Assembly: GCA_001443445.1 (NCBI GenBank)
Contig: LDXN01000025.1
Span: 1-41,202 of the forward strand
Direction of reading: 5' to 3'
DNA: 41,202 nucleotides
Source: Candidatus Dadabacteria bacterium CSP1-2
Lineage (GTDB): Bacteria; Desulfobacterota_D; UBA1144; Nemesobacterales; CSP1-2
Shown here: in pieces, positions 4,024 through 40,499 of the stretch
How positions within the stretch are numbered: position 1 is the first letter of the stretch
Layout of the letters: each line of letters begins with the position of its first letter
Notes under the pieces: model-generated
What the model saw: only the letters and a program-made list of their open reading frames with translations
The model's database searches: none
What the model was told of the DNA's origin: nothing
Translations under genes and position numbers: made by a program

Positions 4024-4165
4024 TCAGCCACTAAGACACCAGGGCACAATGTTAGGAATTAGGAATTCGGGTTTGGGAATTAGGGGTATCCAATCCTAAT
4101 TCCTTAAGAAAAACTTAGTGTCGCCTCGCCTGAGCTCGACGCAGGCTTTGTGGCTAAATAGTTAC
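4024..4165. repeat. Family E element, copy 1 (contains B1)
   Basis: The left arm CAGCCACTAAGACACC starts at 4024 and the right arm ends GTGGCTAAATAGTTAC at 4165. They form an imperfect inverted repeat with AGCCAC paired to GTGGCT. A family B element fills the centre. The same outer arms recur at 37354-37502. Confidence 0.7.
4051..4109. repeat. Family B element, copy 1, nested in E1
   Basis: The left arm iterates TTAGGAATTAGGAATT and the right arm reads ATCCTAATTCCTTAA. It lies wholly between the two arms of E1, which suggests that it inserted into a pre-existing E element. Confidence 0.65.
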
Positions 4166-4179
4166 TTGGGAATAAAACT

Positions 4180-6336
4180 ATGTTGAGATTAAACGACATC
4201 GTTGAAAAGGTTACCTCATACCTTCCTGAAGCCGATGTAGAGGTTATTAAAAGGGCTTATGTCTACTCTGCTAAGGTTCATGCAGGACAAAAAAGAAGTT
4301 CAGGAGAATCTTACCTAGGCCATCCTCTTGAGGTAGCGGGGATACTTGCAGATTTGAGGCTAGATTTGTCATCTGTAGTAACAGGGCTTCTTCACGATAC
4401 AGTGGAGGATACACTTGCAACCCTTGATGAGATTGAAGCACTTTTTGGTAAGGAGGTTGCACTTCTTGTTGATGGTGTTACAAAAATAAGCAAGCTACCA
4501 TTCACTTCAAAGATCGAGGAACAGGCAGAGAGTTTCAGGAAACTATTCCTGGCAACGGCAAAGGATATAAGGGTTGTTCTTGTTAAGCTTGCAGACAGGC
4601 TTCATAACATGCGCACATTAGAATACCTTCCTGAGGATCGTCAGAAGAGAATTTCTAAGGAAACTCTTGAAATTTATTCTCCTCTTGCACATAGGCTTGG
4701 TATTTACTGGATAAGAACAGAGCTTGAGGATCTCTCTTTTCGTTTTCTAAATCCCGAGGAGTATGAAAATATTTCAAAACTAATTGCAAAAAAGAAAAAG
4801 GAATGGGAGAAATACGTTGAGTCAGTAAAAGGCATACTTGAGAAGCAACTCATGGAGTTTGGTATAAAGGCAGAAATAACTGGCAGGTTTAAGCATATTT
4901 ACGCAATTTACAACAAGATGCAAACACAGAATCTTGAGTTCGATCAGGTGCATGATGTTATAGCCTTCAGGATTATTACAAGCTCACTTAGAGAATGCTA
5001 TGAGGCTCTTGGTGCAGTTCATGCAGCTTGGAAACCAGTTCCAGGAAGATTCAAGGACTACATTGCTCTTCCAAAGGGAAACGGGTACCAGACTCTTCAC
5101 ACAACGGTTATTGGTCCATTTGGTGAAAGAATGGAGGTTCAGATCAGGACCCAAAGAATGCACGAGATTGCAGAATACGGTATAGCAGCTCACTGGAAAT
5201 ATAAAGAGGGAAGGATCGAAGCCGCGGAGAGCGATAAAATCTATGCCAGCTTAAGGCAGCTTCTTGAATGGAAGGATATAAAAGACCCGACAGAATTTCT
5301 TGAAGCGGTTAAGGGCGAATTAATTCCTAATATGGTTTATGTGTTTACCCCAAAGGGGGATCTAAAAGAGCTTCCTAATGGAGCTACTCCAGTTGATTTT
5401 GCATATTCGATTCATACGGAGGTTGGAAACCACTGCACAAGGGCAAGGGCAAATGGGAAGCTAGTTCCGCTTGATTATAAGCTAAGAAGCGGCGACACAG
5501 TAGAAATTGCCACGTTACCAGACAAAAAACCCAGTCGCGACTGGCTTAGGTTTGTAATTACATCTCGTGCTAAGACAAAGATTCGTTCATTGCTTAGAAC
5601 GGAAGAAAGGGAGCAATCGAAGCTCGTAGGGAAATCTATATGTGAGAGGAAATTCAAACAGCATGGTCTTGATTATCAAAAGATGTTAAAGAGCGGTGAG
5701 CTTAATACACCACTTAGTGAGCTTGGATTTAAGGAAATAGACGAGTTTTATTTGGCTCTTGGCTATGGCAAGGTTTCTGTAACGGAGCTTTTAAAACGCA
5801 TTCTTCCAAAGGAAAAGCTGGAGGGTTTGCCTGAGAAGGAATCTATGCTTGAGAGGATAATACAGACCCTCACACGCTCGACGAAAAGCGGAGTTCTAGT
5901 TAAAGGTTTCGATGATGTGATGATTAGGTTTGGAAACTGCTGCACTCCTCTTCCTGGAGAAAACATTGTTGGATACATAACAAGAGGCCGCGGAATTACA
6001 ATACATAAACACAACTGTTCCCAGCTTCTTGACGTTGATCCTGCAAGAAAGATAGACGTTGCCTGGGACAGAGGCTTTAAGGAAACTAGGCCTGCAAGGA
6101 TTGAGGTTATATGTGCAGACCGTCCTGGAATATTATCAAGCATCACGCGCTCTATTGCGTCGTCTGATATAAACATATCTAAAGCCGAAATCCATTCAAC
6201 TGATGACGAGAGAGCTATAGGGAAATTTGAGATAGCGGTTTTGGATTTGAACCAACTAGAAGGTGTCATGAAGTCAATAAAAAGGTTAAAAGGGGTTATC
6301 TCTGTAGAGAGAGTATTAGGGGCTGAGGAAATCTAG
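4180..6336 (+). CDS. spoT: Bifunctional (p)ppGpp synthetase/hydrolase RelA/SpoT
   Basis: This 718-residue protein is the long RSH form that makes and degrades (p)ppGpp. The hydrolase domain has HDTVED at residues 72-77 with an intact HD pair, plus the downstream LADRLHNMRT near 137-146. The synthetase domain contains GRFKHIYAIYNKM near 235 and the PGRFKDYIA/GNGYQTLHT segments near 288-308. RxKD rather than ExDD there is the pattern of bifunctional enzymes. A TGS domain follows (VYVFTPKGDLKELP, near 386), then a Cys-containing conserved region (FGNCCTPLPG, near 584) and a C-terminal ACT domain (about 645-718). The ATG at 4180 lacks a strong ribosome site. Confidence 0.96.
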   Translation: MLRLNDIVEKVTSYLPEADVEVIKRAYVYSAKVHAGQKRSSGESYLGHPLEVAGILADLRLDLSSVVTGLLHDTVEDTLATLDEIEALFGKEVALLVDGVTKISKLPFTSKIEEQAESFRKLFLATAKDIRVVLVKLADRLHNMRTLEYLPEDRQKRISKETLEIYSPLAHRLGIYWIRTELEDLSFRFLNPEEYENISKLIAKKKKEWEKYVESVKGILEKQLMEFGIKAEITGRFKHIYAIYNKMQTQNLEFDQVHDVIAFRIITSSLRECYEALGAVHAAWKPVPGRFKDYIALPKGNGYQTLHTTVIGPFGERMEVQIRTQRMHEIAEYGIAAHWKYKEGRIEAAESDKIYASLRQLLEWKDIKDPTEFLEAVKGELIPNMVYVFTPKGDLKELPNGATPVDFAYSIHTEVGNHCTRARANGKLVPLDYKLRSGDTVEIATLPDKKPSRDWLRFVITSRAKTKIRSLLRTEEREQSKLVGKSICERKFKQHGLDYQKMLKSGELNTPLSELGFKEIDEFYLALGYGKVSVTELLKRILPKEKLEGLPEKESMLERIIQTLTRSTKSGVLVKGFDDVMIRFGNCCTPLPGENIVGYITRGRGITIHKHNCSQLLDVDPARKIDVAWDRGFKETRPARIEVICADRPGILSSITRSIASSDINISKAEIHSTDDERAIGKFEIAVLDLNQLEGVMKSIKRLKGVISVERVLGAEEI

Positions 6337-6372
6337 ATTGATGAAGATTCCTTCAACAAGATACAAAAAGGC

Positions 6373-6610
6373 TTGATAGCTCTGCTAGAGCTATCAATGA
6401 CATTTCAAGAGCCGTTTATTACGAGGAACACTTCGCATGTGCTCAGCACTGGCTCAGAGGCGATTCTAAAAACGAGATTGCTTGACGGAGCTTGCACTGA
6501 ACGAAGTGAATGTGTTCGCAATGACAACACGCGAATGTCATTGCGAGGAACCCTTCGTCTAGCTCAGGATAAACTCCATGACGAAGCAATCCCTTTGAGA
6601 TTCCTCAGTA
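6373..6610. repeat. Composite repeat, family A, with a perfect 11-bp hairpin
   Basis: The spacer between spoT and lepB holds no convincing gene. It opens with a perfect hairpin: TTGATAGCTCT at 6373-6383, a 3-base loop, and AGAGCTATCAA at 6387-6397. Family A words follow: GAGATTGCTTGACG near 6474, CGCAATGACA near 6519, TGTCATTGCGAGGAAC near 6537 and GACGAAGCAATCCC near 6580. The hairpin lacks a T-tract, so it is not a classic terminator. The remaining 6611-6741 shows only a stray TATAAT at 6650. Confidence 0.7.
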
Positions 6611-6741
6611 CTCCTTAGGTAATGATCAGGTTCATTACTGCAGCCAGGATATAATCTTCGACCAATTTAGCAAAATAGATTTGTATATAGATACATTAAT
6701 TCCGAATTGTGAATTCTGGGATTAGTAATTACCAGGTTTTT

Positions 6742-7725
6742 ATGCATATTGAAAGAATCCACCTTCCCATTTATACTCAAACCCTCAAGATGTTTGGAAT
6801 TTGGTCAAGGGAATCTAAAATAAAAAAGAGGGCAAAAAGATCGGTTGCTATAGCGCGATCTATTCTTAAGAGTAATATTTCAAAAATCTCCCCCGATGTA
6901 GGGAAATTAATAACGGAAAAAATCAGTCAGACTGAAAAGGCTTTAGAGGACGGCAACTTGAGAGACCTTACTATGGAAACTGAAGGTCTTGAAGGTGTGG
7001 TTGAAGAACACCTGTCTAAGTTTAGAAAATCAAGGTTAAGACAGAATATCGAGTCCCTTCTTATCGCTGTAGCGCTCGCACTTTTTATCAGAACATTTAT
7101 TGTGCAGCCATTTAAAATTCCCTCCGGATCTATGATCCCCACACTACTTGTAGGTGACCACCTTCTTGTAAATAAATTTATTTATGGGACGAGGATACCA
7201 TTTACGGATAAAATGGTTTTGCCTATTCATAATATAAATCGTGGTGACGTGATAGTATTTACCTATCCTAACTATGAGAATGACCCTTCCAGAGATGGAA
7301 TAGATTATATAAAGAGGGTGATAGGTCTTCCGGGCGATAGTATAGATATTAAAGGCAGGAATTTAAATATAAATGAAGAAGAGGTTCCTCTTAAATACCA
7401 AGGGGAGTTTCATGATGAAAGAACTGGGGTTGGTTACGATGAATATGAAGAAGATCTCTTCGGAAATAAACATCAAGTGATATATCTAAAGGGAAAGGGA
7501 TCTACAGAAAAGGGCGAGTACATCCCTGTAACAAAGGTTCCAGAGGGTTATGTATTTGTCATGGGGGACAACCGGGACAATAGCCAAGACAGCCGATTCT
7601 GGGGATTCGTGCCAGTAAAAGATATAGTTGGTAAGGCTTTTCTTATCCATTGGTCATGGGACTTTGGTAGCGAAGGTATACTAGATAAAGTCAGGTGGCA
7701 TAGAGTGCTTTCTTTAATTGAATAG
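6742..7725 (+). CDS. lepB: Signal peptidase I
   Basis: This membrane-bound serine protease removes Sec/Tat signal peptides. One membrane segment (about residues 105-121) is followed by PSGSMIPTL with catalytic Ser130 and YIKRVIGLPGD with catalytic Lys191. The box-E segment GDNRDNSQDSRFWG comes next. A cytosolic N-terminal tract of about 100 residues, Lys/Glu-rich and probably helical, precedes the membrane segment. I chose ATG 6742 (327 residues). GTG at 6709 lies in repeat-like sequence and ATG at 6790 is also possible. The gene sits in a housekeeping stretch upstream of a small membrane protein and pyrR, after a 265-base gap with no clear content. Confidence 0.93.
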   Translation: MHIERIHLPIYTQTLKMFGIWSRESKIKKRAKRSVAIARSILKSNISKISPDVGKLITEKISQTEKALEDGNLRDLTMETEGLEGVVEEHLSKFRKSRLRQNIESLLIAVALALFIRTFIVQPFKIPSGSMIPTLLVGDHLLVNKFIYGTRIPFTDKMVLPIHNINRGDVIVFTYPNYENDPSRDGIDYIKRVIGLPGDSIDIKGRNLNINEEEVPLKYQGEFHDERTGVGYDEYEEDLFGNKHQVIYLKGKGSTEKGEYIPVTKVPEGYVFVMGDNRDNSQDSRFWGFVPVKDIVGKAFLIHWSWDFGSEGILDKVRWHRVLSLIE

Positions 7726-7990
7726 TGTCGGTAGGTGCTATTATATATATCTAACTCAAAATTAGACCGCTATAAAATTGTCGACCCAAACAGAGCTAAA
7801 ATAAGTTGAATAAACCGATCTCTTAAGATTGGTGAACTAGTATCATAATAACAATGCTGTAATTAAACAACGGATTTGAGATTTATTCATGCATCTTTTG
7901 AATTGCTAGCGGCTTTATTTAATGAGAATATGGAAGTAATATATTGATAAAACTGTTTATTAACTTGATTTAAACCATGAGGGTTATCAT

Positions 7991-8350
7991 ATGAGTGCAA
8001 AGATGATATTTTGGATTCTAGTTTTGGTGCTTGTTTTCTATCTGGGTTTTGAGGTAGTTCCAATATTTTATAGAGGAATATTTGGTATAAGGGCTGCTTG
8101 TAGGGAAGATGTAGAGTATTATAAAACATACGGGCGAGAGTTCGTTGTTCATCGGCTAGATGAATCACTAAATGTAAGGGGGATGCCCAAAGATAAAAGA
8201 ACATACACGGTTAGGGTAACAGACCAAGCTATTATAGTAACCATAGACTACTTTGATACAGCAGAGTTTTTCGGGGGAGAGTGTAGGTGGTGCAAAAGGG
8301 ATTTCGAATTCCATTATGAGTGTGAGGGCGCGTTAAAGAGCGTATATTAG
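7991..8350 (+). CDS. Small membrane-anchored protein of unknown function
   Basis: I do not recognise this 119-residue protein. One hydrophobic segment (about residues 5-22) is followed by a soluble part that should lie outside the cytoplasm. It contains four cysteines (37, 98, 101, 111), including a CRWC pair, and a hydrophobic/charged alternation near residues 80-115 that suggests a small beta sheet. The layout resembles DUF4845-like proteins found near lepB in other bacteria, but I see no decisive motif. It ends 7 bases before pyrR and is probably co-transcribed with it. The length and good start (ATG 7991 after GAGGG) favour a real gene. Confidence 0.65.
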   Translation: MSAKMIFWILVLVLVFYLGFEVVPIFYRGIFGIRAACREDVEYYKTYGREFVVHRLDESLNVRGMPKDKRTYTVRVTDQAIIVTIDYFDTAEFFGGECRWCKRDFEFHYECEGALKSVY

Positions 8351-8357
8351 TTTCATC

Positions 8358-8915
8358 ATGAAAAGCAAAGTAATTATGGATTCAGAAACTATAACCCGCG
8401 CCCTTTCGCGAATTGCACACGAGATACTAGAAAGAAATAAGGGTGCAAAAGAGCTAAGGATTATAGGCATAAGAAGAAGGGGAATTCACCTTGCAAGAAG
8501 GCTTGTAGATAAGATTCAAGAACTAGCGGGCATAAAGCCGCCTCTTGGAACACTGGATATAACGCTTTACAGGGATGATTTTAGAAGAAGAACCGACTGG
8601 CCCAGTGTCCAGAAAACAGAAATCCCTTTCTCAGTAGAGGATAAGAACGTGATTCTTGTGGACGACGTTCTTTATACGGGAAGAACTACAAGGGCTGCTA
8701 TTGAGGCCATAATGGATTATGGGAGACCCGCCTCGATACAGCTCGCCGTTCTTGTTGACAGGGGAGGCCATAGGGAACTTCCTATCCAAGCGGACTATAT
8801 GGGAATTAAGGTTATGACCATAAGGACTCAGAAGGTAGATGTGCTTCTTAAAGAACTAGACGGAAGGGATGAGGCAATAGTGCTTCAACTAGACTCACCA
8901 AATGAAGCCGGATAA
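8358..8915 (+). CDS. pyrR: Pyrimidine operon regulator / uracil phosphoribosyltransferase
   Basis: This 185-residue protein has a PRPP-binding type I phosphoribosyltransferase fold. The PRPP loop VILVDDVLYTGRT lies at residues 98-110. IRRRG at 38-42 and LYRDDF near 70-75 are typical PyrR segments. In Firmicutes PyrR binds pyr mRNA and attenuates transcription, and it also has weak UPRTase activity. No PyrR-binding loop or terminator/antiterminator could be recognised in front of pyrR or pyrB here, so it may act elsewhere or at translation. It starts the pyrR-pyrB-pyrC cluster, with a 5-base gap to pyrB. Confidence 0.93.
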   Translation: MKSKVIMDSETITRALSRIAHEILERNKGAKELRIIGIRRRGIHLARRLVDKIQELAGIKPPLGTLDITLYRDDFRRRTDWPSVQKTEIPFSVEDKNVILVDDVLYTGRTTRAAIEAIMDYGRPASIQLAVLVDRGGHRELPIQADYMGIKVMTIRTQKVDVLLKELDGRDEAIVLQLDSPNEAG

Positions 8916-8920
8916 TAAAC

Positions 8921-11130: not shown

Positions 11131-11162
11131 TTCCGCTAACTACCCAATCAAGAGTGAATTCT

Positions 11163-11171
11163 TGCTATAAT
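11163..11171 (+). promoter_or_regulatory. Extended -10 promoter placing the start at the ATG
   Basis: TGCTATAAT is a perfect extended -10 element. Counting seven bases from the last base of the hexamer puts the transcription start at 11178, the A of the start codon of the next gene. No ribosome site lies between, so the transcript would be leaderless. A -35 hexamer is not evident, which is normal for extended -10 promoters. Confidence 0.5.
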
Positions 11172-12478: not shown

Positions 12479-12550
12479 CGTGATTCGTGGTTGGTGTCTC
12501 GTGATTCGGGACTCGTTATTCGATTAACTAACCACAATGCACGAATCACG
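12479..12550. repeat. Family F element, copy 1
   Basis: Arms CGTGATTCGTG (12479-12489) and CACGAATCACG (12540-12550) are perfectly complementary over 11 bases. The following GTTGGT and the preceding ACTAACC extend the stem imperfectly. CGTGATTCG is repeated inside the left half. The right arm ends 11 bases before the next start codon, next to its AAGGGA ribosome site. Confidence 0.75.
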
Positions 12551-13749: not shown

Positions 13750-13871
13750 ATTATGTAATGTGCTGTAAAAAAATTCATTCTTACAATCATTATCCTTCGT
13801 GAGATAATAGTTAAAGGAAAGGCTTATGCATAAGATGGCTTAAACACCTCAATTTACGGAGGTAAATAGAG

Positions 13872-14258
13872 ATGAAGTTTTGAATTGGGCCTTTTAGCAT
13901 GCGGAAACACCTCGAAAATCCAAGTTCCCATGCCGAGATTTACAGACAATGACTTGAACAAGTAAAACTTGCAGAAGAAGTAAATTTTGATTCAGCATGG
14001 ATTGCAGAACACCACTTCCTTGAAGATGGGTTCTGTCCTTCCCCAATTGTCACGGCCTCTGCAATGGCTACAGTGACAAAGCGAATAAAAATCGGAACAT
14101 GCACTCTTTTACTTCCTCTTCACAATCCTGTACAAGTAGCAGAAGATGCCACCATTGTGGATAACATATCAAATGGAAGATTTATTCTAGGTATTGGTAT
14201 GGGTTACAATAAGGAGGAATTCGATGGTGTAAAAATATTCTTTGAATCTTGGATTTAG
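13872..14258 (+). pseudogene. Decayed LLM-class oxidoreductase
   Basis: A single reading frame from ATG 13872, with GGAGG at 13858-13863, encodes a luciferase-family N-terminus: IGPFS, HAEIYRQ, FDSAWIAEHHF, CPSPIVTASA, IGTCTLLLPLHNP and GRFILGIGMGYNKEEFDG. It is interrupted by TGA at 13881 (fourth codon) and TGA at 13950 (after YRQ). It then stops at 14258 at about one third of the family's usual length of 330 residues. TGA ends many intact genes here, so read-through is unlikely. The downstream two thirds are gone. The intact ribosome site and clean frame suggest recent decay. Confidence 0.8.
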
Positions 14259-14482
14259 AATTGTGTTCCGATGGGGAAAGCAGCAGGGTATGGTAAAATA
14301 AAAAAGTTCGAATTTTGAATTAGAGTTAAATAGTTATTAATCTAACTACTGACAACTGCGCTTATTAGATAGTTTCTAGTTGTTTTTCGATTGATTCTTG
14401 TCGTTCGACTGGAAAAAGATAAAAGACAAACAATAAATTTGTGAACTCAACGCGCTTTTTAGATATGATATAAGGAGAAAAC

Positions 14483-14909: not shown

Positions 14910-15046
14910 ATGAAAATACAAATACCAAATCCTAAATCACAAGTCTCAAACAATTTTCAATCTCTAAATTCTAAATTCCAAACTTTGGTATTTGAAAATT
15001 AGAATTTTTTGGAATTTGAGATTTGGTAATTGGTGCTTGTCCTTCT
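14910..15046. repeat. Family C element, copy 1
   Basis: The left arm iterates CAAATACCAAATCC-type words, the centre carries TTCCAAACTTTGGTATTTG, and the right arm reads GGAATTTGAGATTTGG then ATTGGTGCTTGTCCTT. The element begins with ATGAAAATACAAAT, which opens a 30-codon frame. Copies with the same ends are at 29140 and 38035, in the same orientation. Confidence 0.75.
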
Positions 15047-21916: not shown

Positions 21917-21975
21917 AGTGGATTTAGGTTATTTAGTCACGAAAATGCGGGTAGTGGTCGGGCATTTCGGCGAAG

Positions 21976-22103
21976 CCAATTGACTCAATTGGACATGAAT
22001 GAAATAGATAGGATGCAAGACTTCGTCGTGAGCTCAGTCGAACGATACATGATACAGGATGCATGTAAAAACTTTCATGAATCATGCATCGTGCATGATT
22101 TTA
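21976..22103. repeat. Family D element, copy 1, with a short hairpin upstream
   Basis: CCAATTGA (21976-21983) and TCAATTGG (21985-21992) form a short palindrome. The D element proper (22009-22103) iterates GATACATGATACAGGATGC on the left, has TGTAAAAAC in the centre, and CATGAATCATGCATCGTGC on the right. The left part is interrupted by a foreign segment near 22018-22044 (CTTCGTCGTGAGCTCAG). Confidence 0.65.
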
Positions 22104-22173
22104 TTAGCGGCTAAACATTTGTTATGATTTCGCAAGTAGTATTGCGTCCGCAGTGTGGACGTAATGGAAATAA

Positions 22174-23148: not shown

Positions 23149-23237
23149 AGGTGCAGGATACAAGATGCAGGATCCATGATACAGGATATAAAATGCGAAA
23201 CCCATCGCGCATCACGCATCGTGCATCATGCATCGTT
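23149..23237. repeat. Family D element, copy 2, between two tRNAs
   Basis: The left arm iterates GTGCAGGATACAAGATGCAGG and similar words. The right arm iterates GCGCATCACGCATCGTGCATC. The element fills the spacer between tRNA-Thr and tRNA-Tyr. It keeps the family's left-to-right order. Confidence 0.7.
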
Positions 23238-23243
23238 ACGCGA

Positions 23244-23329
23244 GGGGAGGTGGCCGAGTGGACAAAGGCAGCAGACTGTAAATCTGCCGGCGAAAGCCTT
23301 CGGAGGTTCGAATCCTTCCCTCCCCACCA
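23244..23329 (+). tRNA. tRNA-Tyr (GTA anticodon)
   Basis: The acceptor GGGGAGG pairs with CCTCCCC (23319-23325), then A and an encoded CCA. The loop CTGTAAA gives GTA. A long variable arm (GCCGGCGAAAGCCTTCGG region) is as expected for a class II tRNA-Tyr. Confidence 0.95.
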
Positions 23330-23333
23330 CTTA

Positions 23334-23430
23334 AATTCGGATTTCGGATTTTGGATTTCGGATTTAGCTCCTTCGCTACGCTCAGGACATGCTTTGATTC
23401 CGCAATCCGCAATCTGTAACCCGCAATTGA
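23334..23430. repeat. Family G element, copy 1
   Basis: The left arm repeats the eight-base word GGATTTCG/GGATTTTG from 23338. The centre contains TTCGCTACGCTCAGGA. The right arm repeats CCGCAATCCGCAATC (from 23400). It occupies the spacer between tRNA-Tyr and tRNA-Gly. Confidence 0.65.
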
Positions 23431-23435
23431 AACAG

Positions 23436-23598: not shown

Positions 23599-23650
23599 GG
23601 TTTTCGGTGGTTTTGATGTGATAATTTTAATGTAATTAGCCATGAATTGA

Positions 23651-23784
23651 CCAAATAGACACGAATGAAAACAAGCAGGATGCGAGATAAAAGATGCGGG
23701 ATATATGATACAGGATGCATGTAAAAATTTTCATGAATCATGTATCATGCATCATTTGCTCAGTGTATATTCGTGTCTATTTGG
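23651..23784. repeat. Perfect 16-bp inverted repeat in the tuf leader (family I) enclosing a D element
   Basis: CCAAATAGACACGAAT (23651-23666) is exactly complementary to ATTCGTGTCTATTTGG (23769-23784). It encloses a family D copy and ends 34 bases before the tuf start. A hairpin of this size in the leader of the most expressed gene could act in processing or stability; that is inference. Confidence 0.8.
23676..23756. repeat. Family D element, copy 3, nested in the family I repeat
   Basis: Left-arm words GATGCGAGATAAAAGATGCGG and ATACAGGATGCATG surround the centre TAAAAATTTT. The right arm reads CATGAATCATGTATCATGC. It matches copy 1 base for base across GATACAGGATGCATGTAAAA. Confidence 0.75.
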
Positions 23785-23817
23785 TGCAGAATAGTTGCAT
23801 TAGGAGGTGAGCAATAA

Positions 23818-27773: not shown

Positions 27774-27836
27774 GTTGGATTTCAGATTTCGGAGACGCAT
27801 GTTTTTCAATCCGAATTCCGAAACCCCAAATTGAAG
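27774..27836. repeat. Family G element, copy 2
   Basis: The element begins at the base after the rplB stop. Left words GGATTTCAGATTTCGGAG pair imperfectly with CAATCCGAATTCCGAAACC. Its right end runs into the AAGGAGAGG ribosome site of rpsS. Confidence 0.65.
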
Positions 27837-28492: not shown

Positions 28493-29143
28493 TTGGGACA
28501 GAAGATCTGCCCGATAGGACTAAGGATCGGAATAACTAAAAGTTGGGATTCAAAGTGGTATGCGGAGAAGAAGAAGTATACAGAGCTTCTTCATGAAGAT
28601 ATTAAGGTTAGAGAACTCATTAAAAAGGGATTTTATCAGTCTGGGATTTCAAAAATCGAGGTAGAAAGGGCGGCTTCTGAAAAGGTAAGAATAGTAGTTC
28701 ATGCCGCACGACCTGGAATGATAATAGGGCGAAGGGGACAGGAGATCGAATCTCTTAGGCGTGATTTGAGTAATATTACGGGTAAAGAAGTTTATTTGGA
28801 TATTCGTGAAGTCAAACGCCCTGAGATAGATGCACAGCTCGCTTCGGAAAACATAGCGCGACAGATTGAAAGGCGTGTAGCTCATAGGCGCGCTATGAAA
28901 AGGGCAATGGCTTCTGCTATGAGACTTGGTGCACTTGGTATTAAGGTAATGGTTGCAGGAAGGTTAGGGGGATCAGAAATAGCAAGGAAGGAATGGTACC
29001 GCGAGGGTAGGGTTCCCCTTGCAACGCTTCGTGCAGATATTGACTATGGATTTGCCGAAGCAAAGACAACATATGGAGTAACAGGTATTAAGGTATGGAT
29101 ATTTAAAGGCGAGGTGTTGGAGAAGAAAGGACGACAACAATGA
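28493..29143 (+). CDS. rpsC: 30S ribosomal protein S3
   Basis: I place the start at TTG 28493, giving 216 residues and the family start [14 protein letters not shown] good GAAAGGGGG site lies 9 bases upstream. ATG 28466 would add nine residues and overlap rplV, which no homolog needs. The KH domain is seen as [17 protein letters not shown], and [19 protein letters not shown] marks the C-terminal domain. The stop TGA overlaps the ATG that opens repeat C2. Confidence 0.97.
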
Positions 29144-29270
29144 AAGTACAAATTACAAATACCAAATCACAAATTTTAAACAATTTTAAATTTCTAAATT
29201 CTAAACCTTTGGTATTTGAAAATTTGAATTTGTTTGTAATTTGGAATTTGATTATTGGTGCTTGTTCTTT
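29140..29270. repeat. Family C element, copy 2, with a 48-codon open frame
   Basis: The element begins ATGAAAGTACAAATTAC. ATG overlaps the rpsC stop as ATGA. The left arm iterates CAAATTAC-type words. The right arm reads TTTGTAATTTGGAATTTG then ATTGGTGCTTGTTCTT. An open frame runs from 29140 to TAA 29284-29286, 22 bases before the rplP start. Confidence 0.75.
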
Positions 29271-29271
29271 T

Positions 29272-29290
29272 GTTGTGGCTAAATAATTAC
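29272..29290. repeat. Right-arm remnant of a family E element
   Basis: TTGTGGCTAAATAATTAC matches the right end of E1 (TTTGTGGCTAAATAGTTAC) with few differences. No left arm is seen on the other side of C2, so this is a partial copy. Confidence 0.5.
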
Positions 29291-31569: not shown

Positions 31570-31755
31570 ATGGCGACAAAGTCAATGATGGAGAAGTTAA
31601 AGAGTAGGCCCAAGTTTAGAGTGAGACATAGAAATCGCTGCCCTCTCTGTGGGCGACCAAGGGCATATTTAAGGATATTTAATATGTGTAGGCTGTGCTT
31701 CCGACAGGCGGCTAGTTTTGGGAAGGTGCCAGGGGTTAAGAAGGCTAGTTGGTAA
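31570..31755 (+). CDS. rpsN: 30S ribosomal protein S14, zinc-binding type
   Basis: This 61-residue protein is the short, zinc-containing form of S14. CPLC and CRLC provide the four cysteines. [20 protein letters not shown] is diagnostic. I chose ATG 31570 (GAGAGGGAC upstream) over 31552, which adds six residues no homolog has. It is followed by repeat D4. Confidence 0.96.
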
Positions 31756-31756
31756 C

Positions 31757-31838
31757 ATGATACATGATACATGATATAAGATACAGGATTCGATGAATCT
31801 AAATTTCATGCATCATGAATCATGCATCTTGCATCATT
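31757..31838. repeat. Family D element, copy 4
   Basis: The left arm iterates ATGATACATGATAC and AAGATACAGGATTC. The right arm reads CATGCATCATGAATCATGC then ATCTTGCATC. It starts two bases after the rpsN stop and ends about 10 bases before the rpsH ribosome site. Its right arm is open in the rpsH frame from ATG 31815. Confidence 0.75.
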
Positions 31839-31859
31839 ATTCAAAAAGGGGTAATCGTA

Positions 31860-32811: not shown

Positions 32812-33185
32812 TAAGAAAGAAGACTAGAAAGGAAAGACAGGACATAAGACACCGAAGAGTAAGAAGAAAGCTAAGGGGTACTTCTAATACACCTAGGCTT
32901 TCGGTGTTTAAGTCTTCTAAGCATATTTATGCAGAAATAATTGATGACATCAAAGAACATACACTCATAGCAGCATCAACACTTACGCCTAAGATTAGAG
33001 AGGCGCTTAATAATGAAGGGAAAAAGAAGAAGGTTGAAACTGCAAAATTAGTTGGAAAGTATATAGGAGAGATGGCTTTATCAAGGGGTATAAAGAAGGT
33101 GTGTTTTGATCGGGGCGGTTATCTTTACCATGGAAGGGTAAAAGCCTTCGCAGACGGGGCAAGAGAAGCAGGACTGGAGTTTTAG
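32808..33185 (+). CDS. rplR: 50S ribosomal protein L18
   Basis: This 125-residue protein binds 5S r[37 protein letters not shown] and [27 protein letters not shown] are diagnostic. Its TAG stop (33183-33185) is the first three bases of repeat B2. Confidence 0.97.
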
Positions 33186-33256
33186 GAATTAGGCATTAGG
33201 AATTGGGAATTAGTAAAAAATCTTTTAATTCCGAGTTCCTAATTCCCAATTCCTAG
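33183..33256. repeat. Family B element, copy 2
   Basis: The left arm TAGGAATTAGGCATTAGG continues with AATTGGGAATTAG. The centre is AAAAAATCTTTT. The right arm is CCGAGTTCCTAATTCCCAAT then TCCTA. It starts on the rplR stop codon and ends next to the AGGAGG site of rpsE. Confidence 0.8.
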
Positions 33257-33794: not shown

Positions 33795-33955
33795 AAAATT
33801 TGATGCGGTCTTTAGAATATGAACAAGCTAGAGTAATTATTAGGTTATTACCTGTGTAAAATACATTTTAGCGCAATATAACCTCGACATTAAGATGAAT
33901 ATAGACCGTTGAATTTTACAGTTGTTATTTCTAGGTGTGATAGGGTGATTATAAA

Positions 33956-34387: not shown

Positions 34388-35703
34388 GTAGGAATATAGG
34401 AGCTATCCCTAAGATTCCAGAGCTTAATCGAAGGCTTCTATTTGCTGCCTTGATGCTCGTTGTTTATAGATTGGGTGTATTTGTTCCAACACCTGGGATT
34501 GATCCAGAGGAGCTTATAAAGCTTTTCGAGCAGACAAAGGGGACAATATTCGACATACTAAACCTGTTTTCAGGTGGAGCACTTGAGCGAGCTTCTATCT
34601 TTGCGCTAGGTGTGATGCCGTATATTACATCCTCAATCATCATGTCTCTTCTTGTGAAGGCATTCCCTACGCTTGAGGCTATGCAGAAAGAGGGAGAAGC
34701 TGGAAGGAGGAAGATCAATCAGTACTCTCGTTATGGCACTGTCCTAATATGTATTATCCAGGGACTAATGCTTGCTATCACGCTCGAAGGTGGGCTTGGT
34801 TCTGGCGCCTCAGTTGTTAGAGATCCAGGATGGATGTTTAGATTTACAACCGTTATGACTCTAACGGCTGGCACCCTTTTTGTAATGTGGATAGGTGAGC
34901 AGATTTCTGAGCGTGGAATAGGGAATGGCATATCTCTTATAATTGCTGCTTCAATCCTTACAAGAATGCCGGCTGCACTTTGGGATTCAGTAAGGCTGAT
35001 TGAAACTGGTGAACTGACTGTATTTGGAATGCTTCTTCTTTTTGTGTTTATGGCTTTTATTGTTGGCTTAATAGTTTATTTTGAAAGGTCTTATAGAAAG
35101 ATCCCTGTTCAATATCCTAGGCGGGTAGTAGGGAGAAAGGTCTATGGAGGTCAGGCATCTCATCTCCCACTTAAGGTAAACACAGCAGGAGTTATTCCGC
35201 CGATTTTTGCCTCTTCGCTAATGATCTTTCCAGCAACTATACTTAGTTTTGTAAACATACCCTATTTGAGGGATATCACCGATGTATTCCTAGGACAGGG
35301 TTTTATTTATAATTCGATGTATGCAGGTTTAATAATATTTTTTGCATACTTTTATACCGCTGTTATATATAATCCAGATGATCTTGCTGACAATCTAAGA
35401 AAAAACGGTGGCTTTATACCTGGAATTAGACCGGGAAAGAAAACTGCTGATTATATTGAAAAGATTCTTGGAAGGATTACCTTTATTGGTGCGATATACG
35501 TTGCAGCCGTGTGTGTGCTACCCTCTATTCTTCAGGGAGCGCCTTTTAATATACCCTTTTTCTTCGGTGGTACATCGCTTCTCATTGTTGTAGGAGTAAC
35601 GCTTGATACTGTACAGCAGATTGAGTCCTTCCTAATTACACACAGTTATGAGGGATTTATAAGAAAAAGGGGAATGAAAGGGCCTAGAAGGTATGGAGTA
35701 TAA
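34384..35703 (+). CDS. secY: Protein translocase subunit SecY
   Basis: This 439-residue inner-membrane protein with ten helices forms the Sec channel. RRLLFAALMLVVYRLG at the start, the plug-region SGGALERASIFALGVMPYI, and RGIGNGISLII near residue 177 are diagnostic. The cytosolic loops that bind SecA and the ribosome (YERSYRKIPVQYPRR type, FIPGIRPGKKTADYIEKIL) are intact. adk follows after 3 bases. Confidence 0.98.
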   Translation: MSRNIGAIPKIPELNRRLLFAALMLVVYRLGVFVPTPGIDPEELIKLFEQTKGTIFDILNLFSGGALERASIFALGVMPYITSSIIMSLLVKAFPTLEAMQKEGEAGRRKINQYSRYGTVLICIIQGLMLAITLEGGLGSGASVVRDPGWMFRFTTVMTLTAGTLFVMWIGEQISERGIGNGISLIIAASILTRMPAALWDSVRLIETGELTVFGMLLLFVFMAFIVGLIVYFERSYRKIPVQYPRRVVGRKVYGGQASHLPLKVNTAGVIPPIFASSLMIFPATILSFVNIPYLRDITDVFLGQGFIYNSMYAGLIIFFAYFYTAVIYNPDDLADNLRKNGGFIPGIRPGKKTADYIEKILGRITFIGAIYVAAVCVLPSILQGAPFNIPFFFGGTSLLIVVGVTLDTVQQIESFLITHSYEGFIRKRGMKGPRRYGV

Positions 35704-35706
35704 TCT

Positions 35707-36357
35707 ATGAGACTTATAATTTTCGGACCGCCAGGTGCAGGAAAAGGCACACAAGCAGTTAAGATCTCTCAGGAGTACAAGGTCCTTCATATCTCTACAG
35801 GAGATATATTGAGGGCTTCAGTGAAAGAAGGGACTGAACTTGGAAAGCTTGCTAAAACATATATGGATAAGGGTGAATTAGTTCCTGATAACGTAATAAT
35901 TGGAATAATAAAAGAGAGAATCACAACGCAAGATTCGCAGAAGGGATTTCTTCTCGACGGTTTTCCAAGGACGATAGAGCAAGCAGAGGCATTGGAAAAG
36001 ATGCTTAATAAAGAAGGGCAAAGGATAGACAGTGTAATCTCTATTGAGGTGGATGATGAAGAGATTGTTAAGAGGATAACTGGCAGGCGGGTTTGCGAAA
36101 AATGTGGCTCAATGTATCATATTATTTTTGATCCACCAACAAATATGGGGTATTGTAACAAATGTGGGGGTGGGCTTTATCAAAGGGATGACGATAGTGA
36201 AGATGTGATAAGGACAAGACTTCAAGTTTATCGAAGGCAGACCGAGCCATTAAAGAAATTTTATAAAAAAGTAGGAATCTTAAAAAGGGTTGATGGGCTA
36301 GGTACGATTGATGATGTGTTTGAGAGGATCGAAAAGATATTAAAAGGTGTTGCTTAA
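35707..36357 (+). CDS. adk: Adenylate kinase, zinc-lid type
   Basis: This 216-residue enzyme interconverts ATP, ADP and AMP. The P-loop GPPGAGKGT lies at residues 7-15, and DGFPRT at 84-89 binds AMP. The lid has four cysteines (130, 133, 150, 153) of the zinc-binding form. It directly abuts map with no gap. Confidence 0.97.
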   Translation: MRLIIFGPPGAGKGTQAVKISQEYKVLHISTGDILRASVKEGTELGKLAKTYMDKGELVPDNVIIGIIKERITTQDSQKGFLLDGFPRTIEQAEALEKMLNKEGQRIDSVISIEVDDEEIVKRITGRRVCEKCGSMYHIIFDPPTNMGYCNKCGGGLYQRDDDSEDVIRTRLQVYRRQTEPLKKFYKKVGILKRVDGLGTIDDVFERIEKILKGVA

Positions 36358-37125
36358 ATGATTTTTTTAAAGAGCGAAGAAGAAATAGAAAAGATTAGAA
36401 GAGCTTCAGATATAGTTGTCGAGGTTCTAGATAGGCTTAGTGAGGAAACAAAGCCTGGTGTTTCTACATGGGACCTCGATAAAATTGCAGAGGAGCTTAC
36501 CTTAAGAAAAGGAGCCATACCAGCTTTTAAAGGGTATCGAGGTTATCCTGCCTCTGTTTGCTTCGCTGTTAACGAAGAGGTTGTTCATGGAATTCCATCA
36601 AAAAAGAAGATATTGAAAGAGGGCGATATTGTAAGCCTGGATTTTGGTGCGTATTTTGACGGATTCTATGGCGATTCAGCAATCACCGTGCCAGTAGGTA
36701 AGGTATCTCAACTTGCTGATAGCCTGCTTCTAGTAACGAGGAATTCTCTCTATGAGGGAATCAAAATGGCCCGGGCGTCTAATAGGCTTTTTGACATTTC
36801 TCAAGCTATTCAAAATTGCGTCGAGAATGAGGGATTCTCAGTTGTGAGGGCCTTTGTAGGACATGGAATTGGGAGGAAGCTTCACGAGGATCCTCAGGTA
36901 CCCAATTTTGTTCCAGAGAATGGACACTGGGGAAAGGGCATTAGACTTAAACCTGGTATAGTAATCGCGATCGAGCCAATGGTTAATGTTGGAAAGCCTG
37001 ATGTCAAGGTTTTGGGTGATGGTTGGACTGCTGTGACTGTGGATGGTACCCTTTCCGCTCACTTTGAGCATACTGTTGCAATACTCGAGGATGGCCCTAA
37101 GATTTTAACCGAATTTAGACAGTGA
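36358..37125 (+). CDS. map: Methionine aminopeptidase, type I
   Basis: This 255-residue metalloenzyme removes the initiator Met from nascent chains. His77 (VVHGIP) and the metal ligands Asp95, Asp106, His169, Glu206 and Glu237 are present in order. No SH3-like N-terminal extension. It lies between adk and infA in the usual spc position. Confidence 0.97.
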
Positions 37126-37132
37126 GGAGGTT

Positions 37133-37354
37133 ATGCCGAAAGAGGAAAGAATAGAGTTTGAGGGTACAGTTATTGAGGCGCTTCCAAATGCTATGTTTAG
37201 AGTGGAGATTGAAGGTGGTCCAAAGATACTTGCTTATGTCTCGGGAAAGATGAGGACTCATTTCATCAGAATCCTTCCTGGTGATAAAGTAAAAGTGGAG
37301 CTATCACCCTACGACCTCACTAAAGGAAGAATAACATACAGGATGAAAAAATAG
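37133..37354 (+). CDS. infA: Translation initiation factor IF-1
   Basis: This 73-residue OB-fold protein has [34 protein letters not shown] and [20 protein letters not shown] precedes ATG 37133. Its TAG stop overlaps the first base of repeat E2. Confidence 0.98.
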
Positions 37355-37502
37355 TAACCTTTCGGCCACTAAGGCACAAAGGCACAATGAGGAATATTAG
37401 TTTAAAAAAAATAGGTTCGGAAGTCAGAAGCCAGAACACAGAACACAGAAGGAGGCTATCTTCTAACTTCGTGTCTCAGTGTCTTTGTGGCTGAGTAGTT
37501 AC
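37354..37502. repeat. Family E element, copy 2, with an inner insert
   Basis: The outer arms GTAAC-CTTTC-GGCCACTAAGG and GTGTCTTTGTGGCTGAGTAGTTAC pair (GTAAC/GTTAC, GCCAC/GTGGC). Inside lies a different word set (CAGAAGCCAGAACACAG, AACACAGAAGG, near 37422-37452) that looks like another inserted element. It separates infA from rpmJ. Confidence 0.7.
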
Positions 37503-37528
37503 AGGAGATAAAAGAGGAGGAGTTTAAG

Positions 37529-37642
37529 TTGAAAGTAAGGGCATCAGTGAAGAAGATTTGTGATAAATGCAAGATAATAAAAAGACGTGGAGCAATTCGC
37601 GTAATCTGTAATAACAAAAAGCATATGCAAAAACAAGGTTAG
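37529..37642 (+). CDS. rpmJ: 50S ribosomal protein L36
   Basis: A 37-residue frame starts at TTG 37529, 5 bases after GAGGAGGAG. It reads [19 protein letters not shown] and ends HMQKQG. Cys11, Cys14, Cys27 and His32 form the zinc site, so it is the C+ form. It is too short for usual length filters. It lies 11 bases before rpsM. Confidence 0.95.
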
Positions 37643-37653
37643 GAGGTAACCGG

Positions 37654-38034
37654 ATGCCAAGAATAGCAGGTGTAGATATTCCACCGAATAAACGGATTGA
37701 AGTTGGCCTTACTTACATTTATGGGATAGGCCGACCGACGTCAAGGAAGATTCTTGCGCAAGCGGAGGTTGACCTAAATAAGCGCTCAAAGGACTTAAAC
37801 GAGCAGGAGACAGCCAAGATTAGGGACATAATTGAAAGGGATTGCACGGTTGAGGGTGAATTACGAAGAGAGGTTCAGACAAATATCAAACGCTTCATCG
37901 AAATAGGCTGCTATAGAGGAACGAGACATAAGCTCGGTCTTCCAGTTCGTGGGCAACGGACGCGTTCTAATGCTAGAACTAGGAAGGGACCAAGAGGCAC
38001 GGCTATTACAAGAAAGAAAAAGCTCAAGGGTTAA
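37654..38034 (+). CDS. rpsM: 30S ribosomal protein S13
   Basis: This 126-residue protein starts [26 protein letters not shown]. The helix-two-turn-helix region and the C-terminal [20 protein letters not shown] tail, which contacts tRNA, are intact. AGGAGG precedes the ATG. Repeat C3 begins at the base after its stop. Confidence 0.98.
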
Positions 38035-38133
38035 ATGAAACTACAAATTCCAAATCACAAGCACCAAATTCCAAATAACAAACATTAAGGCTTAGAATTT
38101 GGAATTTTAGATTTGTTTATTGGGCTTGTTCTT
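38035..38133. repeat. Family C element, copy 3
   Basis: It begins ATGAAACTACAAATTCC directly after the rpsM TAA. The left arm iterates CAAATCACAAGCACC-type words. The right arm reads TTGGAATTTTAGATTTG then TATTGGGCTTGTTCTT. A 17-codon frame (MKLQIPNHKHQIPNNKH) opens from its first ATG. Confidence 0.75.
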
Positions 38134-38149
38134 AATCTGGAGGTGAATG

Positions 38150-38533
38150 TTGGCTAAGAAAAAGGCGGCTAAAAAGAGCAAAAAGGTTGCAGATCAGGGT
38201 GTGGCTCACATTCAGGCTACATTCAATAACACTATAATTACTATAAGTGATAACCAGGGAAACGTTATCGCTTGGTCAAGCAGCGGCGCAAAGGGATTCA
38301 AAGGTACAAGAAAAGGAACACCATTTGCTGCTCAGATTGCTGCTGAGGATGCTGCAAGGAAAGTGGTAGCGCATGGAATGAAAAGTGTTGTCGTATATGT
38401 CAAAGGGCCTGGTCCAGGAAGAGAACCGGCCATCAGATCTCTTCAGTCTGCAGGGCTTAGAATAACAATGATTAGAGATGTTACTCCACTTCCTCATAAT
38501 GGTTGCAGACCAGCTGGAAGAAGAAGGGTATAG
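38150..38533 (+). CDS. rpsK: 30S ribosomal protein S11
   Basis: I prefer TTG 38150 (127 residues, [12 protein letters not shown]) because GGAGG ends 6 bases before it; ATG 38147 is only 3 bases from that site and adds one residue. [19 protein letters not shown] and [17 protein letters not shown] and [18 protein letters not shown] are diagnostic. It forms the platform near the mRNA exit. Repeat D5 begins directly after its stop. Confidence 0.97.
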
Positions 38534-38623
38534 ATACAGGATATAGATACAGGATGCAGGATACATGATACAAGATGCATGTAAAAACTCCCATGAATTG
38601 TACATCATGCATCGTGCATCGTT
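38534..38623. repeat. Family D element, copy 5
   Basis: It begins at the base after the rpsK stop with ATACAGGATATAGATACAGG, then GATGCAGGATACATG. The centre is TGTAAAAACTCCC. The right arm reads ATGAATTGTACATCATGC then ATCGTGCATCG. It has the same orientation as the other D copies. Confidence 0.75.
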
Positions 38624-38658
38624 GTTCGTGGCTCGTGTATCAAATCATGAATCACGAA
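38624..38658. repeat. Family F element, copy 2 (partial)
   Basis: TTCGTGGCTCGTGTATC and ATCATGAATCACGAA form a short inverted repeat related to F1 (CGTGATTCG words). It sits back to back with D5 in front of the rpsD ribosome site. Confidence 0.5.
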
Positions 38659-38691
38659 ATCCGCGATAGAAAAAGGGAGGTTAACGGATAA

Positions 38692-39324
38692 GTGGCAAAA
38701 TACACTGGGGCTGTTTGCAGGCTATGTAGAAGGGAAGGAATAAAACTATTCCTTAAAGGAGATAGGTGTTACACAGAAAAGTGCGCAGTAGAGAGGCGTC
38801 CTGACCAAGTTCCTGGGGAGCACGGTCTAAGACGTCCTAAGTTTTCTGAGTTTGGGATTCGACTAAGAGAAAAGCAAAAGGTGAGACGAATTTATGGTCT
38901 TACTGAAAGGCAGTTCAGAAGGTATTTTGAAAGGGCTTCCCGTGTCAAGGGTATTACAGGTGAGCTTCTAATTTCTTTTCTGGAAAGAAGGCTTGATAAC
39001 GTTGTATACCGTCTTGGTTTTGCAGGTTCGAGGAATGAGGCACGGGTGATAGTGCGCTATGGGCATATTCTTATTAACGGTAGGAAATTGGATATACCAT
39101 CATATCAAACTAAGCTGGGTGATGTTATTGAGGTAAAGGATAGAAGTCAAAAGCTTGATAGAATTAATAAGTCGCTTGAAATCCTTGCAAGAAGAGGTCT
39201 TCCTGATTGGCTTGAACTTGAGAAAGAGAATTATAAAGGAATAATTAAAAGGCTTCCACAAAGGATAGATGTTACGTTTCCAATAGAAGAGCAGCTTATA
39301 GTGGAATTCTATTCAAGAGTCTGA
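38692..39324 (+). CDS. rpsD: 30S ribosomal protein S4, zinc-binding type
   Basis: This 210-residue protein starts at GTG 38692 with GGGAGG upstream. Cys9, Cys12, Cys26 and Cys31 form the zinc site of the C+ form. The S4 RNA-binding domain is near 100-160 ([36 protein letters not shown]). In E. coli S4 represses the alpha operon. A 70-base gap to rpoA follows, holding only a weak AT stem. Confidence 0.98.
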
Positions 39325-39394
39325 TCATTAATGGGATATTTTTAATATCAATTTTGAAAAAGCACCCTATAACTAACAAAGGGAGGGAGGCAAG

Positions 39395-40429
39395 GTGAAG
39401 GATTTTCAGAGAAATTGGCAGGAACTTATAAGACCAAAAAGGCTTGATAAGGATGAGAAGGATTCTAGTATAGTTTATGGGAAATTCATATGTGAGCCGC
39501 TTGAACGCGGATATGGAGTTACTTTTGGAAACGTTTTGAGGAGGGTATTGCTATCCTCTATCCAAGGGCCTGCAATTACATCACTTAAAATTGAAGGAGT
39601 GCTTCACGAATTTTCTACTATCCCTGGTGTTAAGGAGGACGTGACGGAGATTGTATTGAATCTCAAGGGAATAGAGCTCAAAATGCATACCTATGAACCT
39701 CAGTTAATTACAGTCAGTGCTATGGGAGAATGCGACGTAAAGGCAGGTGACATTATCACCGGGCATCAGATTGAAATCCTTAATCCAAGTCACCACATAG
39801 CCACACTCTCAGAGGGGGCAAAGCTTGAGATGAACATGACAGTAGAAATGGGGCGTGGCTATGAACCTGTGGAAAGGCGAGGCGATACTCAAAGAGCGAT
39901 AGGGGTTATACTAATTGACGCTCTTTTCTCACCTGTGAGGAAGGTAAATTATAACGTTACGAATGCTAGAGTTGGCAGACGAACTGATTACGAAAGGCTC
40001 ACTCTTGAAATCTGGACAAATGGGATAATTGTTCCAGAGGATGCACTTGCTTATGCAGCAAAAATACTGCGGGAGCAACTTAAGGTCTTTTTAAATTTTG
40101 ATGAAGAGGAAATAGATGCCGTCGTCGAGGTTGAGAAGAAGAGGGAGATAGTCGGGACAGAGGCTGTTCTTTTTACTACTATTGATGATATGGATCTCTC
40201 AGCAAGGTCACTCAATTGTCTAAGAAAGGCAAATATTGTCTATGTGGGAGAACTAATCCAGAAAACCGATGAGGAGCTATTAAATCTTGAAAACTTTGGC
40301 AAGCGTTCTCTTATGGAAACAAAAGATAGGCTTACGGAACTGGGTCTTGGTCTTGGTATAAAGCTTAACCAGGAGATCTTTGAATCAGAAAGGGCCAAGC
40401 GCTTAAAAGAGAAAAGGGTTTCAAGTTAG
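39395..40429 (+). CDS. rpoA: RNA polymerase alpha subunit
   Basis: This 344-residue protein starts at GTG 39395, 4 bases after a strong GGGAGGGAGG site. The N-terminal domain (about 1-235) has GYGVTFGNVLRRVLLSS and the dimer and beta-contact regions. The C-terminal DNA-binding domain (about 260-325) has DLSARSLNCLRKANI and a helix-hairpin-helix. Length is a little above the usual 330. Its TAG stop is the start of repeat B3. Confidence 0.98.
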   Translation: MKDFQRNWQELIRPKRLDKDEKDSSIVYGKFICEPLERGYGVTFGNVLRRVLLSSIQGPAITSLKIEGVLHEFSTIPGVKEDVTEIVLNLKGIELKMHTYEPQLITVSAMGECDVKAGDIITGHQIEILNPSHHIATLSEGAKLEMNMTVEMGRGYEPVERRGDTQRAIGVILIDALFSPVRKVNYNVTNARVGRRTDYERLTLEIWTNGIIVPEDALAYAAKILREQLKVFLNFDEEEIDAVVEVEKKREIVGTEAVLFTTIDDMDLSARSLNCLRKANIVYVGELIQKTDEELLNLENFGKRSLMETKDRLTELGLGLGIKLNQEIFESERAKRLKEKRVSS

Positions 40430-40499
40430 GAATTGGGAATTAGGGATCAGGAATTGCTATACAAATTTTTTAATTAATACCGAATTCCTAATTCCTGAT
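40427..40499. repeat. Family B element, copy 3
   Basis: TAGGAATTGGGAATTAGGG and ATCAGGAATTG form the left arm, the centre is AAATTTTTTAATTAAT, and the right arm is CCGAATTCCTAATTCCTGA. It starts on the rpoA TAG stop and ends next to the TGGAGG site of rplQ. Confidence 0.8.

Follow-up and report, generated by a model that had tools for sequence, protein, structure and literature searches.

The short tandemly repeated repetitive (STRR) sequences of cyanobacteria, such as GGGGAYT in Nostoc, are intergenic tandem heptamers in which several words can coexist, and they are reported as direct repeats. An excess of heptamer repeats in bacteria has been known since 2007 and is unexplained (cited in PMC4692102). 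Work on Beggiatoaceae describes intergenic tandem heptamers of the word TAACTGA as direct repeats, with one inverted case only (PMC4679880). In Xanthomonas the heptamer GGGAATC forms degenerate arrays (GGGANTN), 183–186 per genome, with 70–75 convergent pairs capable of forming stem-loops and lengths that vary between close species (PMC4692102). Geobacter metallireducens contains paired tandem-repeat sites, comprising class 1 GTTGCTYN octamers, class 2 TCTCCGTS[Y] and class 3 MTYCTGA heptamers, which were read as binding sites of IHF/HU-like proteins or of regulators yet to be identified (PMC2700814), and multicopy sequences are known from G. bemidjiensis (PMC2996986). Short intergenic inverted pairs of repetitive extragenic palindromes (REPINs), thought to be mobile as hairpins, carry conserved 16-mers beside a gene for a REP-associated tyrosine transposase (RAYT; PMC3116915). 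Here, we describe hairpins made of tandem 7-nucleotide (7-nt) words in the intergenic spacers of contig LDXN01000025.1 of Candidatus Dadabacteria bacterium CSP1-2, analysed over its whole length of 41,202 nt (the window), and in related genomes. They represent a real, multi-family, fast-turnover class of intergenic hairpins that is most probably mobile and shaped by 7-nt slippage.

Many heptamer words follow one hairpin plan

The window is the entire contig C25 of a 2.48-Mb genome in 89 contigs (labelled G000), ~1.63 Mb of which was covered by the genome-wide array statistics. In a self-comparison over 441 kb, lag 7 produced 26 runs and lag 14 produced 12, compared with 0–5 at each other lag tested; lag 7 together with its multiples 14 and 21 predominates. 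At a threshold of 11 over 1.63 Mb there were 98 arrays at lag 7, a tally that includes a few ‘N’ runs, versus 7–25 at the other lags from 4 to 13. With ‘N’ runs removed (threshold 10.5, 1.59 Mb), lag 7 gave 87 arrays versus 4–26 for lags 5–13. The arrays were mainly intergenic, 91 of 134 lying outside long open reading frames even though these make up 80% of the DNA.

The words recovered were F1 GATRCAN, F2 TCGTGNN, F3 TTAGGAA/GGAATTR, F4 CAAATNC, F5 CAGAAKY, F6 AGCYATS, F7 GGATTKC, F8 GACTCTY, F9 GGACGGR, F10 TAGTCGT and F11 GCCGTCA, plus a GGTTCAA-type word; F6 and F8–F12 have few copies each. At least ten different words obey one hairpin plan, and this plan is the one put forward in the original prediction from the window alone: degenerate words make up the left arm and their complements the right arm, around an A/T-rich centre. 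That prediction also spoke of about 20 spacer elements in several sequence-distinct families, and ~15–20 were found in the window. Its description of the families as independent holds only in part, as some intergrade or have one frame in common. The word length is 7 nt in every inner family. The 8- and 12-mers that had been proposed proved to be mis-phased 7-mers (GATACAGGATGC is GATACAG+GATGC, CAAATTAC is CAAATTA+C and GGATTTCG is GGATTTC+G), and true 8-, 9- and 10-base words (CACTAAGG, CACAGAGAA, ACACGAATTT) occur only in the outer arms of some elements.

An inverted partner that outscored every one of 30 dinucleotide shuffles and of 30 random windows was present within 130 nt of 87 of 165 lag-7 arrays. 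Judged against shuffles only, such partners accompanied 12/43 arrays at lag 8 and 10/56 at lag 9, with 1/16 at lag 5, 0/41 at lag 6, 2/46 at lag 12 and 0/18 at lag 13. When 15 window elements were folded as RNA and compared with dinucleotide shuffles, ten had z ≤ −2.39 (lowest −7.4) and five were weak (z −0.67 to −1.93); in Rfam, tRNAs were the only matches. The families thus proved to be multi-copy and their arms more complementary than shuffled sequence, contrary to the two outcomes that would have counted against the original prediction. Copy numbers are in the tens, and not in the hundreds that it allowed for.

The listed word occupied the 5′ arm in 96 of 98 hairpins drawn out, the two exceptions being a misassigned self-contained hairpin (L064) and a single F6 element whose word had been written for the other strand. 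A single polarity within each family is predicted by copying of whole hairpins; no polarity rule across families is claimed, because the strand on which each word is given was chosen only once the hairpins had been seen. A compositional rule in which the purine-rich arm comes first was rejected, as it fails for the words of F2, F4, F7 and F10.

The two arms change by whole words and independently

The genome of a sister species from the same genus (G001; ~95% identity over the aligned operon) was compared with G000 across ~191 kb of alignment. Among 84 indels at arrays, 14 were of 7 nt, three of 14 nt and one of 28 nt, part of the array indels being forced alignments of unrelated families, whereas the 7-nt size made up only 4 of 283 indels in other non-coding DNA. 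Clean whole-word changes were seen at L217/L036 (28 nt), at L226/L009 (7 nt, in several places), at L203/L017 and at L215/window positions 40430 and 40473. The last of these is the element between RpoA and L17, which has an extra left-arm word in G001 and an extra right-arm word in G000, showing that the arms change independently.

The relation between arms was also assessed by ranking the partner arm of each element among the arms of other family members (0.5 being random). The mean rank was 0.43 for F1, 0.49 for F2, 0.48 for F3, 0.42 for F5 and 0.36 for F7, with 0.19 for F4, so that in five of six families the two arms of an element resemble each other only slightly more, or no more, than they resemble the arms of other members. 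In an alignment of 12 F4 elements from four genera, two-sided changes were found in 0 of 20 predicted pairs, with a covariation term of −0.01. The compensatory arm changes that had been anticipated are therefore missing from F4, the family to which the alignment was confined, and the arm-matching test shows no sign of them in the others. Of the processes suggested beforehand, slippage is supported by the 7-, 14- and 28-nt array indels between the sister genomes; growth of palindromes does not agree with arms that slip separately and are unmirrored, and the separate slippage of each arm indicates tandem-array slippage instead.

Elements with unlike words share terminal frames

Ends of the form GTAACTATTTAGCCAC...GTGGCTAAATAGTTAC are common to elements of unlike words, with 29 pairs in 2.03 Mb, whereas ten scrambled versions of the ends averaged 0.8 pairs. 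The end core lay within 110 nt of 11/13 F5, 6/10 F3, 6/12 F4 and 14/31 F1 hairpins, compared with 6% of random windows, and within the same distance of 1/15 F2, 0/11 F7 and 0/3 F10 hairpins. The view that the hairpins are not miniature inverted-repeat transposable elements (MITEs) with fixed ends accordingly stands for F2, F7 and F10 and falls for F1, F3, F4 and F5, which often lie between GTAACTATTTAGCCAC-type ends; fixed terminal inverted repeats were found only in these four families and in the 8–10-mer frames. The elements can also be nested, F3 and F5 occurring inside one type of 8-mer frame and F1 inside a 10-mer frame, and nesting within loops was seen repeatedly. Separately, unrelated small palindromes (GTAGGAGCGCCATCCCTGGCGCGAC..., GCACGAATAAATTCGTGCCTAC and GTAGGGGCGAACGGCCGTTCGCCC) were observed in the loop of a shared frame (L007, L043, L051, L219, L010), as if the loops of the frame were landing sites.

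Families replace one another at orthologous spacers

Within the ribosomal-protein operon, the S3-L16 spacer holds F4 in G000 and an 8-mer frame plus F5 in G001, and in eight other genomes it is 32–69 nt long without an array. The L18-S5 spacer has F3 in G000, an F10 hairpin in G001 and no element in the others. Between L2 and S19, F7 is present in both sister genomes and F4 in a relative from another genus (G006), while G003 and G005 have a spacer of 23–25 nt without an element. The S11-S4 spacer contains F1 in G000 and G001, the G001 copy with a GTAGCTAAATAGTTAG end, and F7 in G006. Retention was seen too: F1 is common to G000, G001 and G006 between S14 and S8, and F4 occurs in both sister genomes between S13 and S11, with its word array altered. 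Replacement extends beyond the operon, with F5 versus F1 at the same place in L036/L217, and F6 versus F10 as well as F3 versus a GGTTCAA type in L024/L227.

Distribution of the words among genomes and IMG/VR contigs

In samples of 12–80 kb, lag-7 arrays were present in G000, G001, G005 and G006 and more weakly in G002; they were not found in samples of this size from G003, G008, G011 and G019, and the one array of G010 is a T-rich run. Across 58 genomes of the phylum, which all belong to one class and include one family with genomes of ~1 Mb, the F2 triple-word pattern occurred 22 times in G000, 7 times in G001, twice in G005 and nowhere else, and the reversed pattern was absent from all of them. 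F4 copies are homologous over 136 nt, with 26 matches each in G000 and G006, and can be aligned across four genera.

The F5 pattern matched 92 stretches in IMG/VR versus 9 for its reverse, a count that exceeds the number of independent cases since related contigs contain the same repeat, and it formed 7 hairpins of the same polarity and none reversed. These matches and the Geobacter class-3 word suggest that the F5 word is not limited to this lineage. The F2 word was not enriched in IMG/VR (45 versus 58 reversed), the control itself catching other heptamer hairpins. Among these were families with the words GTGCTTG and TCGGGTA, in contigs L413 and L463, and such hits suggest that heptamer hairpins as a class are common in environmental contigs.

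Elements and other repeats of the window

Besides the L2-to-L17 ribosomal-protein operon, the window encodes RelA/SpoT, Omp85, EF-Tu, four tRNAs and a class II tRNA synthetase; its hairpin elements are listed in Table 1.

Table 1. Hairpin elements of the window, with z scores for predicted RNA folding relative to dinucleotide shuffles (TIR, terminal inverted repeat)
Position	Element	Fold z
4024-4164	F3 hairpin (TTAGGAA words from 4052) nested in 8-mer frame CAGCCACTAAGACACC...GTGGCTAAATAGTTAC	−1.85 (4024-4160)
12479-12550	F2 hairpin (TCGTGNN words), without frame	−3.68
14910-15044	F4 element (CAAATNC words), conserved F4 subfamily	−3.27
21935-22150	F1 element (GATRCAN words), 25-nt CTTCGTCGTGAGCTCAGTCGAACGA insert in left array; outer limits approximate	−0.67 (22030-22110 alone; not significant)
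23150-23245	F1 hairpin between tRNA genes, no frame seen	−1.93
23329-23434	F7 hairpin (GGATTKC words) between tRNA genes	−2.58
23650-23785	F1 hairpin within 17-bp perfect inverted repeat ACCAAATAGACACGAAT/ATTCGTGTCTATTTGGT	−7.13
27774-27836	F7 hairpin, L2-S19 spacer	−1.42
29137-29276	F4 element, S3-L16 spacer, right end GTGGCTAAATAATTAC	−5.40
31744-31846	F1 hairpin, S14-S8 spacer	−2.39
33182-33256	F3 hairpin (TTAGGAA words), L18-S5 spacer	−7.37
37354-37502	TIR element GTAACCTTTCGGCCAC...GTGGCTGAGTAGTTAC, 8-mer arms, nested F5 array (CAGAAKY words)	−4.64
38035-38125	F4 element, S13-S11 spacer	−1.78
38542-38680	F1 hairpin grading into F2 hairpin, S11-S4 spacer	−3.21
40426-40500	F3 hairpin, RpoA-L17 spacer	−4.84

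The TAG stop codons of L18 (33183-33185) and RpoA (40427-40429) each fall within the opening TTAGGAA word of an F3 hairpin, and the stop codon of S3 is provided by two different elements in G000 and G001.

The ~25-nt sequence CTTCGTCGTGAGCTCAGTCGAACGA is nearly identical in most of its 24 copies in 1.63 Mb of G000, which include window positions 22020-22045 and sites in L034, L036, L043, L047, L056, L085 and other stretches. It interrupts heptamer arrays in 11 of the 24 copies, compared with 23 of 2000 random places, and its last two bases (GA or GG) are usually repeated by the two bases preceding the insert. It is reminiscent of the small dispersed repeats known from Nostoc. Another dispersed repeat family, of larger size and without relation to the heptamer hairpins, is TCATTGCGAGGA..GAAGCAATC..GATTGCTTCG, which accounts for the most highly repeated regions of this genome; its sites include window 1147-1464 and 6337-6708, L081 17815-18068, L013 9082-9262 and many others. 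The spacer at 13750-14482 appears, by reading only, to be a disrupted duplicate of the luciferase-like monooxygenase gene that lies intact at 133-1146.

Proposed mobile hairpins and alternative explanations

On balance we favour the interpretation that these elements are non-autonomous mobile hairpins with arms that lengthen and shorten through slippage of 7 nt. An element measures ~60–150 nt, a single degenerate 7-nt word being repeated in tandem along its first arm and the complementary word along its second. According to this model, entire hairpins would enter intergenic spacers through a transposition-like process, those of F1, F3, F4 and F5 often travelling inside or beside a GTAACTATTTAGCCAC-ended frame. 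After insertion, each arm would win or lose whole words by replication slippage and the words would drift, which would blur the borders of families and leave the arms pairing by consensus only. In its favour stand the dominant 7-nt period, the single polarity per family, the multi-copy families, the whole-word indels in each arm, the family swaps at orthologous spacers and the common frame ends, all of which, like the hairpin form, are observed directly; most arrays also lie outside long open reading frames. We infer the dispersal by hairpin transposition, and likewise the role of polymerase slippage in the whole-word changes.

Several results weigh against this model, and the chief weakness of the mobile-hairpin explanation is the gap between elements and possible donors. 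Searches of five whole genomes found no near-identical donor for genome-specific elements, although the sister genomes are ~95% identical, the best matches being 87% (F4, G000:C44), 86% (F4 in G006), 79% (F3) and 85% over 61 nt (F10), of which those for F3 and F4 were full-length. The absence of close donors speaks against very recent copying from a donor that still exists, and it is compatible with donor loss, horizontal entry or an error-prone process. Inspection by eye of the flanks of 29 TIR elements showed no consistent target-site duplication, with one possible 8-nt repeat (L226). A longer, transposase-bearing element with the same ends was not found in ~2.3 Mb of incomplete genomes, where a single pair of ends lay 400–6000 nt apart (L056 6091-10064, contents unread). 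Finally, 6 of 7 Y1_Tnp genes examined had no lag-7 array within 1.5 kb.

The Y1_Tnp result bears equally on the proposal that the elements are REPINs moved by RAYT (Y1) transposases. Their hairpin shape and intergenic location would suit such a mechanism, as would the abundance of Y1_Tnp genes, at 2–17 per genome in this taxonomic family versus 0–2 in the rest of the order, and lag-7 arrays are distributed roughly like these genes in small samples; however, the overall load of mobile elements could produce the same correlation. Moreover, the REP tetranucleotides GTAG/CGTC were not seen by eye in element ends and arms, no systematic tag search having been made. RAYT neighbourhood was set aside as a candidate, since an array within 1.5 kb at 1 of 7 Y1_Tnp loci amounts to no consistent association. 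We consider a REPIN/RAYT origin very unlikely. It is unlikely, too, that hairpins grow de novo, as originally suggested, each site making its own by slippage or template-driven synthesis. Such growth would accommodate genome-specific elements without close donors, the alteration of arrays by whole words and the missing fixed ends of F2, F7 and F10, but unlinked sites have the same degenerate word, the same polarity and often the same loop, four families have the same outer ends, arms are unmirrored in five of six families and F4 retains one long sequence across genera. Templating by a reverse transcriptase was rejected, as RVT_1 is represented by one broken copy in G000 and by none in G001.

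Turnover at orthologous spacers bears on two functional explanations. Because families are swapped or absent at the orthologous spacers of the ribosomal operon, position is not conserved, and it is quite unlikely that selection maintains the hairpins as arrays to which a global DNA- or RNA-binding protein attaches, as was proposed in Geobacter metallireducens (PMC2700814), despite an identical layout of paired arrays on opposite strands and despite the complementarity of class 3 to F5 and the resemblance of class 2 to the 9-mer family. That neither position nor family is conserved also counts against cis-acting RNA elements (terminators, attenuators or 3′-end stabilizers) retained for operon regulation; stable RNA hairpins are predicted between operon genes, yet tRNAs were the only Rfam matches and F4 shows no compensatory changes, so that we regard a regulatory RNA role as highly improbable. 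A broader proposal seems doubtful to us, namely that one widespread class of element exists in bacteria that is recognizable by its design instead of its sequence, tandem 7-nt words forming a hairpin whose polarity is fixed. Such a hairpin would spread by an error-prone or template-renewing process, keeping its 7-nt period while its word changes. If it were true, new copies would never closely match any donor.

Comparison with known repeat systems

The mobile-hairpin model can be set beside the systems already described. As in MITEs, some of the elements carry fixed inverted ends and encode no protein; unlike MITEs, they show no consistent target duplication, no parent transposon was found in ~2.3 Mb and elements with the same ends have unrelated interiors. 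REPINs lack word iteration, and their 16-mers next to a RAYT gene were not seen here. The heptamers of Nostoc and Beggiatoaceae are likewise intergenic and tandem, but they are reported as direct repeats.

The Xanthomonas and Geobacter repeats come closer. Xanthomonas has tandem degenerate 7-nt intergenic units and convergent array pairs, both of which occur in the present elements. It differs in having a single word per genome, read as G-quadruplex-forming, and the accessible text describes no multiple families, frames or replacement (PMC4692102); here, F1, F2, F4 and F5 words seldom exceed GG, and GGG occurs only in F9 and part of the F3 words, which is too little for G-quadruplexes. Geobacter has 7–9-base words in paired opposite-strand arrays that are intergenic and multi-copy. 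F5 (TCAGRAK), a family with the words CAGAAGT, CAGAATT and CAGGAGT in 13 hairpins, is complementary to its class 3, the comparison being at consensus level only, and its class 2 resembles the 9-mer CACAGAGAA/CACGGAG arms. Unlike the present genome, it has three such paired classes, and the accessible text describes no shared terminal frame, nesting or turnover between sister species.

In the open-licence literature on such repeats, so far as it was accessible, we found no description of many word families per genome, of a shared terminal frame or of family swaps at orthologous spacers; such an account may exist elsewhere. The heptamer hairpin as a kind has thus already been reported piecemeal and without explanation, and its many-family, framed and replacing form appears to be new. 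With many families in one genome and a sister genome ~95% identical, the same spacers record insertion, replacement and the change of single words. It thereby becomes directly testable why the period is seven, how the elements move and whether the repeats of Geobacter, Xanthomonas and Nostoc are one phenomenon.

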